Of a stretch of 64,000 nt of DNA, positions 4,291-52,893 are shown piece by piece. Position 1 is the stretch's first letter. Each line of letters opens with the position of its first letter. The notes under the pieces are model-generated. The model had not been told where the DNA came from. It saw nothing but the letters and a program-made list of their open reading frames with translations, and did no database searches. Source of the stretch: Pyrobaculum ferrireducens (GTDB taxonomy: Archaea > Thermoproteota > Thermoprotei > Thermoproteales > Thermoproteaceae); NCBI RefSeq assembly GCF_000234805.1, contig NC_016645.1, positions 1,216,391 to 1,280,390 on the forward strand, given 5' to 3'. Made by a program: the position numbers and the translations under genes.

Positions 4291-4606
4291 GTACATAGGT
4301 CTCCTAATTCCGTTGTTCGGCGCGGCGTCGCCTTGGCATGTGTTAAACGCGGCGTTGTTGCCCTTCGTAGGGGGCGTCGTCTACGGCTACTTCACAGAGA
4401 GGCGCCGCGGGGTTGTTCTAGCGCCGCTGGCCGCCCTCATCCCAATAGGTCTCGTGCTGGTCTACTACGCGGCTGTGGACGTGGCTAGGCTAACACGCTT
4501 CTTTTCAATATTCCCGCTCTTCGTTGGTTTGTGGGCCGTGTTTTGGCTATTGTTTTTCACGGCTGGGGCAGTGGCTGGGCACTTACTACGGCCTAGGAAT
4601 AGATAA
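4274..4606 (+). CDS. Small membrane protein, 110 aa
   Basis: Three to four hydrophobic helices (about residues 8-38, 45-68 and 75-105) and a basic C-terminus mark an integral membrane protein of unknown function. It begins inside the acylase gene, so it is likely cotranscribed with it and may assist or neighbour that exported enzyme in the membrane. The TATA box of the binding-protein gene lies just after its stop. Confidence 0.65.
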   Translation: MSRWVRYIGLLIPLFGAASPWHVLNAALLPFVGGVVYGYFTERRRGVVLAPLAALIPIGLVLVYYAAVDVARLTRFFSIFPLFVGLWAVFWLLFFTAGAVAGHLLRPRNR

Positions 4607-4628
4607 AAATACGCGAAAAGCAGAAATT

Positions 4629-5890
4629 ATGAACACCAAACTTTTGGCAGTAATAGCGGCAGTGGTGGTGTTGGCGGTAGTCGGGGCCTTGGTTGCGTTT
4701 CAAGCTCCGCCGCCCCAGCAGCAAACCTCCCCAGCGCCTACACAAACAACACCCCCCGCTACTACGACTAAGCAAGCGCCCAAGGGTGCTATATATGTTA
4801 TATACGATATAGGCGGAAGGGGGGGACCTCTCTTTTAACGACATGGCCTACCTCGGGGCGTCCAGAGCAGCCGAGACTTTTGGGCTTGGCTTGAAGGAGG
4901 TGCAGAGCAGAACTCAGGACGACTACGTGCCTAATCTACGCGCCGCCGCCAAATCCGGCGATGCCGCTATAATCGTCGCCGTGGGCTTCTTGATGACTGA
5001 CGCGGTGAAGTCGGTGTCGCAGGAGTTCCCCGACGCCAAATTTGCAATAATCGACGGCTACATACCGGACAGGCCCAACGTCATGTCTGTCTTGTACAGA
5101 GAAAACGAGGGCTCCGCCCTAGTGGGGGCCTTGGCCGCCCTCACAGCTTACTACTACAACTGTAGCAAGGTGGGTATTGTGCTGGGTATGGAGATACCGG
5201 TCCTCTGGAAGTTTGAAATCGGCTACGCCTACGGCGTTAGGTGGGCGGAGCGCTACATTAAGCAGAAGTTTGGAAAAGATGCCAAGTTCGACATTCTCTA
5301 CATATACACCGGCTCCTTCAACGACCCAGCTAAGGGCAAGCAGGCCGCCGAGGTGATGCTGGCCCAAGGCGTCTGCGTGATTTACCAAGCCGCCGGCGCC
5401 ACGGGGCTAGGCGTCTTTGAGGCGGTGGCCGAGGCTGGCAAGAAGGCTGGGAGGTCGATGGGGCCGCCGTTCGCCATCGGCGTCGACGCGGATCAGGACT
5501 ACCTGAAGCCCGGCTTTATACTGGCGTCGATGATGAAGCGCGTCGACGTGGGCGTCTACACAGCGGCGAAGATGGCCGTGGAGGGCGAGTTCAAGGGCGG
5601 CGTGTTGGAGCTGGGGCTTAAGGAGGGCGGCATCTCGGTGAGCACGCTCGACGACCTTAACCAGTTTATACAGATAGGCGTGAGGGCCGGGGCCGTCAAG
5701 CAGGCGGACGCCGATAAGATTATCGCCGCTGTGAGGGAGATGAGGTCTAAGATACCTACGTGGGTTTTGGGAAGCTGTGGATCAGCTAAAGCAAGACATC
5801 ATCAACGGCAAGGTCGCCGTGCCGCTTCCCACGACGCAGGACCAGGTGGCTCAGCTCAGGAAGGAGCTCGGCCTAGGCGCCGTCAGCTAA
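4629..5890 (+). pseudogene. BMP-family nucleoside/sugar ABC-transporter binding protein with two frameshifts
   Basis: The start encodes a signal or anchor segment and a Pro/Thr/Gln-rich linker, followed by a periplasmic-binding domain of the BMP (PnrA/TmpC-like) family with 'AFIDGYIPDRPNV'-type and 'GVDADQDY' motifs. Two single-base insertions break the frame. One extra G lies in the seven-G run 4819-4825, after which the expected 'GDLSFNDMAYLG' is read in another frame. One extra T lies in 5765-5768, after which 'WEAVDQLKQDI...' continues to the TAA at 5888-5890. Removing both bases gives one protein of about 419 residues whose stop overlaps the ATG of the ATPase gene (TAATG). Either these are assembly errors or the transporter is off in this clone. 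Confidence 0.85.
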
Positions 5891-11051: not shown

Positions 11052-11294
11052 TCAACCCGGTGTTTTAATACGTAGCGCCCTAACCAAGTTGATAAAAGAC
11101 AAGACACTCGACAACGCGTTTAATACCGTGAACACCGCGTCGCCCAGCACCGCGGCGTATATAGTCAAGGCCACGCTGCCGAAGAAGTACAACACAGTTA
11201 AGTCAAGCGGCGGAGGCGGCCCCCTCCTCGCTATGTTCACAGCCCAGGCGGCGGCTATCAGCAAGAGGCCTATGAGGCCGAGGACTTGGATCAT
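11052..11294 (-). CDS. Small three-helix membrane protein, 80 aa
   Basis: The protein is almost entirely hydrophobic: helices at about 3-22, 32-52 and 55-73 with a Pro-rich loop (PPPPLD) between the first two. The size and pattern are like single PQ-loop-type or CBU_0592-like units, but this is not certain. Its ATG overlaps the stop of the mevalonate kinase reading frame (ATGA), making it the last gene of that operon. Confidence 0.6.
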   Translation of the reverse strand: MIQVLGLIGLLLIAAAWAVNIARRGPPPPLDLTVLYFFGSVALTIYAAVLGDAVFTVLNALSSVLSFINLVRALRIKTPG

Positions 11295-12239
11295 ACAGCG
11301 GCGGCGCCTCCGCGGTAGATAGAAACTTTGTAGTAGGGGTGGCCCCAGGCGGTCAGCATCTTCTCCACCACCTCCCCCTCCCGGGGCAGTATCAACACAA
11401 CGCCGCCGCGGCCCGCGCCGCTTATCTTACCTCCGTAGATAAACGGCCTCAACTTCTCGAGGAGGTTCACCACTCTGCCGTCGACGACGCCCAAGGCGCC
11501 TAGTAGCCAGTTGTCTATCTCCATGAGCTCGCCGACGCACCCCCCAGTCTCCCCTCGCCAGACACCCCTCCGCCTCATCGACGACGCGTCCAATGGCGTC
11601 GATCACCGAAGCAGCAGAGCGCCGCCTCTCCAACAGCGACTTGACATCTCTGACGATCTCCCCCGTGGTGCCGAAGCGGGGAAGCACCACAACGTAGAAC
11701 GGGGGGAGGTCCACGTTCAGCCTCTCGACGCGGAAGGGGTTGGCCCATATCTTCAGCACCCCGCCGAGGGAAACCGTGGCAGTATCCATGGGGGAGGCTA
11801 TCCCCTGGACCTCGAGCTCCACCCTGTGCCCCAGCTTCGCCAGCTCCTCGGCGCCCGCCTCGGCGCCGGCGCAGTGGGAATACGCCTTCAACAGCCCCAC
11901 AGACACCGCGGCCGACGTGGCTGCCCCAACGCTGGGCGGCAAGTCGCTCCTTATCGAAAACCTAGCGGCCAGCCTCCCCCACCTCTCCTCTGCAATTCTA
12001 AGAGCTATCTCGACGTATGAGAGGAACTTCTCCACCCCCACAGCTTCCGCGCGCCCCTCTCCAGGCCGGTACCTCAACACGGCGGGAGGCCCCAGAGTCT
12101 CCACCACAAGATCGCCCCCCACCTTGCACTCGATGTAGACGCCTTTGTCTATGGTGGCTGATATGGCGGGCTTGCCGTAGACCACCGCGTGTTCTCCAAA
12201 CAGCTTTACAACACCTGGGGCGAAAATCCTAACAGACAC
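11291..12239 (-). pseudogene. mvk: Mevalonate kinase, single frameshift in a G run
   Basis: GHMP kinase of the archaeal isoprenoid (membrane lipid) pathway, phosphorylating mevalonate. Present are the N-terminal 'PGVVKLFGEHAVVYGKPA' motif, the ATP loop 'LPPSVGAATSAA' (about 99-110), the catalytic Asp in 'SPMDTATVSLGG' and, in another frame, 'GGKISGAGRGG' of motif 3. The two parts join if one base is removed from the six-base run at 11540-11545; the annotated frame otherwise ends in Arg-rich nonsense. The repaired protein has about 315 residues, normal for the family. Because the pathway is essential, sequencing error, frameshifting or slippage heterogeneity are all possible. Confidence 0.88.
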
Positions 12240-50593: not shown

Positions 50594-52893
50594 ATGAAGG
50601 TTCCGAAGCCCCGAGCGATAGTGGGCGGGGCGTATCCAAAGCGCCTAGGTTCTTTAACCGGCGTGGCTCCAGAGCCCAGGTCTGCGGCGATTATAGTCGT
50701 GGTAGTGATGGTGTTGTTGCCGATGTTGGCATTATCTCAAGTTTTAGAAATTCCGGGACAGAAAGGACAAAAGCTGTTCGTGTACCTAGTTGAGTCAGAT
50801 ATACCGCTTGGAGATGAGGTCCCCCATATACCCGGCGCCAAGTGGGCTCTTGGCGAGCAGGCGCTGGTGGTGTTCGTGCCTAGGGACGTAGGGCGGGGCT
50901 TTGTACTATTTACAAACGAGACTGTGGACATACCGGCATACGACAGGAAATACTTCTTGCTAGCACTCCCCGCGGGGGCCAAGCCGGCGGGGGCCAGGGG
51001 CAACGCCACGTTGAAGACACCAGACGGGGAATTCCCCGTGGTGTTTAGAAAGCCAGATGGGGGGTTAATAGAGATTGTGGCGGGGAGCGTAGACGAGGCC
51101 TTCAAAATATTGAGGGAGTTGGGCTTTCAGCCGGAGTTCCGCGGACGGGCGAGACTTGAAAGAGGCGGCGGATCTAGGCCAGGTGACATACCAGCCGCGG
51201 CGGCCACCCCGCCCCCAGCACTGGCGCCTCGCTATACGTCTACGGCGGGGTGTACTTCAGACCGGTGAGAGTGAGCAGTAGCTATACGGAATACGTAGTG
51301 CCAGTACATGGGGAATCCGGCGCCAGCGCTTGTAGAAACGTGCCCGACGCGGCGTATATCGGCTACGACGCCGCCTCGCTATCACTAGGCGTGTTAATTA
51401 AAGGCGGCTCTGCAGACGGCGTGTTGACAGCTGATGTCTACCGCATAAACGCCGACGGCACATGCACGCTTCTCAAATCCAGCTCCTACACCTTGGCCAA
51501 CAGAGCCAGGATGTGGATTTCTGGTGTTAACCTAGACAGTAGCCGGGGTAGCGAGCTGGCGGTTAGACTCAGAGTTTATATAAACACGTACTCCGGCGCG
51601 CCGGCCGTTGGCATAAACGGCACTGTGCAGTACCTCCGATACTACTACCGTAACTACACACTGGCTGAGATGTTATACGCCACGGCCACAGACTACTATG
51701 GACGGCCGAGCGGATACTCGGTGGGTAGCTATATCGACAGGATTCTAATAGGGCCCTACGCAGCCTTCGACGGCCTAGTCGAGGGGACCTTCACTGGGGG
51801 CGTAGACCTGCAGTTGACCACAGACGCCGTGGGCGGTACATGTCCGGGACTTATGTGGGAGCTGTGGCTCAACGGCATGTGGTATGTGGCGGGGTCAACG
51901 GCATACGGCAGTTATAACAGTGGGACTAACGGATGTGTCTACGAAATAAACACGGGGACCTACAGCCTCGGCGCCTATCCCTACAGCTTTGCCAAATCCT
52001 TCGGCGGGGCGCTCTCCTGGCTTGTCAAAATAAAGTTCGACAACGGCGCTACTCCATACGTGAGGTCTATTTTCGTCAGAACCGCCGAGGTTTTCAGAGC
52101 GTGGCGCTGGGTAGAGCAGTGGAAGGATTTCCCAGACGCCATGGATAAGATATGGAGGAACCCCTACGCGGCCTCCGTCCTCGAAATATACGGCGCCCCT
52201 TCCGACCCCCAAGCCGGCCCATATGTATACCACGGGCTCGTACTCCTCAGAGTTAATGACATATACGACACGTACCAGCGAATAATGCTCCAAGTCGCAG
52301 GACGCTCTGTGTCTAGTAGTTATGTGGATTATATAAAGGGGTTTGAAGTGTACATGAGGCTGTCAATTCCAACGAAGACTAGCTCAGGTTCGGCCTCTCT
52401 GTACAAGGCCAACTACATAAAAGGGACATCTATTGCCGATGTCACAAAGCCTTGGCTTATAGACGTCGCTCAGAGAGTTCTCGATGCTATAAACTTCATC
52501 TTAATCTTCGTGCCAAGCAAACTGGCGTCTCTACTCGCCTTCCTAGCAGGCCAGGCACTGCAGACCGCGTCAGGTAGCTATAACGTGGACGTACTTGATA
52601 GCAATAACGTGAGAGTTTGGTGGATTGCGCCTTGGGCCGGATCGGAGTCGGATTCGCTATTATTTGCTATAAGTCTCCCCACGGCGGCGGCAGATCCTTA
52701 TGCGAACATGTCCATAGAGGTGAAAATCACCAAAGCCTGCTTAGAGCAGTACTGCATCAGCCCAGATCAGGGACTCAAAGGGTACATCCAGCCGACAAAT
52801 CCATTCATCTATTCTGCCTTAAGACACGCCGAGGTGAAAACGTGGATGTTTAGAGGATTAACAAGCGCCGGTATGAAATACGTACTTAAATGA
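50594..52893 (+). pseudogene. Large beta-rich secreted protein, frameshifted at C runs
   Basis: The first frame encodes an N-terminal region with a hydrophobic segment (about 32-48), a beta domain and a Gly/Arg linker, then runs into a premature stop at 51266-51268. The next frame continues as PAPSTGASLYVYGGVYF... for about 560 codons. Adding one C to the runs at 51207-51210 or 51212-51216 joins them to about 766 residues. The second part is Tyr/Ser/Gly-rich beta sequence with a hydrophobic stretch near its end (INFILIFVPSKLASLLAFLAG). The stop overlaps the next gene (ATGA). Function unknown. Confidence 0.7.

Follow-up and report, generated by a model that had tools for sequence, protein, structure and literature searches.

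A single-base frame break in the mevalonate kinase gene of Pyrobaculum ferrireducens that probably reflects a homopolymer miscount

A mevalonate kinase gene divided between two frames

The window analysed here is a stretch of 64,000 nucleotides of the Pyrobaculum ferrireducens genome (assembly GCF_000234805.1, contig NC_016645.1, positions 1,216,391 to 1,280,390), which contains a mevalonate kinase (MVK) gene with an apparently broken reading frame. MVK is essential for lipid synthesis in this thermophilic archaeon. The gene is encoded on the minus strand, with a GTG start at 12239 and a stop at 11291. Profile searches find both parts of the family model TIGR00549, in order but divided between two frames: the N-terminal open reading frame (ORF; 270 aa) matches model positions 1-222 and GHMP_kinases_N, while the C-terminal ORF, which has 100 aa and lies in a different frame, accounts for positions 226-276 and also matches Pfam GHMP_kinases_C. 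This distribution of the model therefore indicates one gene split at a run of six Gs. The plus strand at this point reads ACGCA-CCCCCC-AGTC and the coding strand GAC TGG GGG GTG CGT, such that the MVK residues through D-W-G lie in one frame, and those from C-V-G-E onward in the other. The loss of frame proposed at this run by the first-pass annotation is hence confirmed, as the two profile-matching frames meet there. As discussed below, it is likely that the deposited sequence contains one G too many and that the MVK of this strain is ordinary and intact.

The presence of such a run is not in itself informative. The window contains 330 G/C runs of length at least five, eight of them inside the MVK gene, and 92 of length at least six; with six-base runs this frequent, it is the disruption of a conserved frame that exceeds what might be expected by chance.

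Conservation of the gene among relatives

Within a set of 11 Pyrobaculum genomes, including that containing the window, MVK was detected in ten, the sole miss being a genome that is 74% complete. The gene is read in a single frame in all nine relatives that have it, and the nine translations align unbroken. The nearest of these is strain 3827-6, the genome of which was sequenced on the Illumina NovaSeq platform (PMC9872711). This strain has five Gs at the site and an in-frame MVK reading D-W-G-C-V-G-E; across 3,693 bases it is 98% identical to the window, and the extra G is the sole gap in the alignment. In the remaining eight relatives this position reads D-L or D-F and lacks a G run. One-frame MVK genes were also found in Thermoproteus sp. 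CP80 and at two further Thermoproteales loci.

The 3827-6 protein matches all 276 positions of TIGR00549, which is its best family, with a score of 161.6 bits against a cut-off of 163.05. Its best matches in the PDB are the archaeal mevalonate kinases 8TEB, 6MDE, 4HAC, 1VIS and 1KKH, with which it aligns along its length. The window gene resembles these enzymes in having both GHMP domains in order, and differs in that its parts lie in two frames; otherwise nothing distinguishes it at the family level.

Table 1. Features of the mevalonate kinase locus, in window coordinates
Feature	Coordinates	Strand	Basis
MVK gene, apparently split in two frames	11291..12239	-	TIGR00549 1-222 and 226-276; one-frame 315-aa counterpart in strain 3827-6
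ORF with N-terminal part (GHMP_kinases_N), then out-of-frame tail	11427..12239	-	Profile matches
Run of six Gs (six Cs on the plus strand), point of frame break; five Gs in nearest relative	11540..11545	-	Sequence and alignment
ORF with C-terminal part (GHMP_kinases_C, including GGKISGAGRGG stretch)	11291..11593	-	Profile matches

Other single-base breaks in the assembly

The genome containing the window was compared with that of strain 3827-6 in two blocks, of which 104,810 bases (block A, from 164 kb taken) and 69,189 bases (block B, from 160 kb taken) could be aligned, retaining pieces longer than 1.5 kb with more than 94% identity. In these approximately 174 kb, four single-base insertions or deletions (indels) break three conserved genes of the window genome, the MVK site being one. 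Indels in ORFs lacking either a clear third-position bias or a 150-codon ORF were left out before counting, as were two less certain breaks at window positions 51211 and 61163. Relative to 3827-6, three of the four breaks are changes in G/C runs (from five to four, six to seven and five to six bases), whereas the fourth extends a run of three Ts to four.

Beyond MVK, two conserved genes are affected by three single-base breaks, two of them in G/C runs. At C1:1199156, 17.2 kb before the window, a run of five Gs in 3827-6 is represented by four, within the CoA-binding domain of an NDP-forming acyl-CoA synthetase-like gene that also has a Succ_CoA_lig domain. The second gene, encoding a PnrA-like (PF02608) substrate-binding protein at window positions 4524-5887 on the plus strand, is broken twice: six Gs have become seven at 4825, and three Ts have become four at 5768, which carries the frame into the next ORF, resembling an ABC ATPase.

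No breaks were upheld in strain 3827-6 over the same aligned stretches. Four candidates, numbered by their positions in the window genome, were re-examined; those at 614569 and 707391 fall in the first residues of the window-genome ORF and were read as spurious 5' extensions, the Radical_SAM domain at 707391 lying downstream of the break, while that at 1256441 is one continuous match. The last, at 1119198, yielded a pair of matches separated in 3827-6 by about 2.7 kb, and was not counted as a break. The occurrence of further single-base breaks in the window genome, with none upheld in 3827-6, fits homopolymer miscounts in this assembly.

One-base changes in the length of G/C runs become commoner as the runs get longer, affecting 1 of 3648 runs of three bases, 4 of 1463 runs of four, 5 of 665 runs of five, 2 of 246 runs of six and 3 of 27 runs of at least seven. 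A larger difference was observed at C1:1200778, 15.6 kb before the window, where a run of 13 Gs corresponds to one of five in 3827-6; the adjacent T run is one base longer, and the ORF is in frame in total.

Requirement for mevalonate kinase

The first-pass annotation had also stated that the window contains no second MVK. This holds, and is true also of the entire 2.47-Mb genome (a single contig of 2,467,972 bases), in which the search for another copy that it had proposed found none. By profile comparison, the four other GHMP_kinases_N matches in the genome score best for other substrates: two exceed the cut-offs of the shikimate kinase and homoserine kinase models, and two are best matched by, although below the cut-offs of, the galactokinase and pantoate kinase models. 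An MVK-like match (29%) at C1:2154846 was rejected as a second MVK, since it is the one scoring best as a galactokinase; the adjoining ORF we take to be a galT-like uridylyltransferase.

The modified mevalonate pathway uses AcnX to dehydrate mevalonate 5-phosphate, which is the product of MVK. AcnX is present in the genome, consistent with a pathway dependent on MVK. With AcnX present and no second MVK, a fixed null allele of this gene is hard to believe.

Origin of the frame break

The most likely interpretation is that the mevalonate kinase itself is ordinary, its deposited sequence apparently being wrong by one base, and that no new biology is involved. The cells would carry five Gs and an intact gene, and the sixth would have entered through miscounting of the G run during sequencing or assembly; judging from the sequence comparisons, the extra base is probably absent from the cells. 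The likeness to the homopolymer miscounts familiar from other assemblies lies in the surplus base in a short G run and the further one-base breaks in the same assembly; the difference is that the error is here deduced from assembled sequences rather than raw reads. 454 pyrosequencing is prone to such miscounts, and its reported use for the genome of the window strain (1860) would strengthen this reading.

Several observations weigh against a miscount. The argument for it depends on assembled sequences, and the change from three to four Ts scarcely involves a homopolymer. Furthermore, all four breaks fall inside a span of about 29 kb in block A and none in the 69 kb aligned in block B, hence the error rate would have to be uneven. 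Real slippage would likewise make length changes more frequent in longer runs.

Real slippage within the culture is the main rival to miscounting, and the two cannot be separated with certainty. Under this explanation, the extra G is real in some cells and was recorded by the assembly, while five-G cells sustain the population. The MVK break resembles slippage in being a one-base change within a short run, although no sign of a mixed population is evident. The repair genes of these archaea offer evidence on both sides. MutS_V was matched in just two of the 11 genomes; the window genome is one of these, with a weak match at C1:1542209 (31.6 bits against a cut-off of 30.2). NucS_C, a domain of another archaeal mismatch nuclease, is over the cut-off in ten of the 11, the window genome included. 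Strain 3827-6 has a similar repair set, yet no upheld breaks in the same stretches, and a majority null allele of the sole MVK should be lost. Slippage is therefore considered unlikely, but it retains some weight, given the increase of length changes with run length, the sparseness of MutS_V and a published account in which MutS and MutL were missing from the earliest Pyrobaculum genomes and frameshifts in mononucleotide runs figured prominently in Sulfolobus acidocaldarius (PMC4471258).

Of the three origins listed by the first-pass annotation, assembly error is thus favoured and population slippage survives as a lesser alternative, while frameshifting finds no support as an expression device. 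A real and fixed six-G run, with MVK made by +1 ribosomal frameshifting or RNA polymerase slippage, would account for the lack of a second MVK, and the run is a plausible slippery site. Conserved recoding can nevertheless be rejected, as the nearest relative has five Gs, and the two-frame arrangement occurs in none of the nine relatives; at this pair of codons, eight of them lack a G run. A signal for recoding was likewise not detected. The RNA at the site is not unusually folded (z 0.17, with 107 of 200 shuffles of a single 121-nt stretch folding at least as well), and this, together with the lack of conservation, makes recoding unlikely in general. The codon changes, two synonymous and three nonsynonymous in the 83 codons after the run and seven and four respectively in the 230 before it, are too few to show selection, and two other genes are broken likewise. 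Recoding or transcriptional slippage specific to this strain would mean that an essential gene had newly come to rely on a slippery run, and is very improbable. Literature searches on Pyrobaculum frameshifting, run-length errors, mevalonate kinase and pyrosequencing found no title or abstract about this site. Even less credible is a real break with MVK functioning as two polypeptides, or with another kinase substituting for it: a TTG codon at 11593 is a potential start for the C-terminal ORF, but a split MVK is found in none of the nine relatives, and the other four GHMP kinases score best for the substrates given above.

Were the six-G run nevertheless real, an essential archaeal enzyme would depend either upon recoding or upon a mixed population. 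As some conserved genes in this assembly look broken, claims about pseudogenes or pathways based upon it need resequencing.

Genomic context

The MVK gene is flanked on one side by an ORF resembling ribosomal protein L10/P0, and on the other by a short ORF and one resembling a nucleoside phosphorylase, these names being readings of the ORF translations. The aldehyde dehydrogenase encoded at C1:960258 is identical at all 491 of 491 residues to PDB 4H73, which is described as an enzyme of Pyrobaculum sp. 1860 (PMC5121451); the genome is thus very probably that of P. ferrireducens strain 1860. The window genome and that of strain 3827-6 are rearranged relative to each other; past approximately 22 kb of the window (about 22000-64000), synteny and identity drop, with shorter aligned pieces, inversions and many indels.
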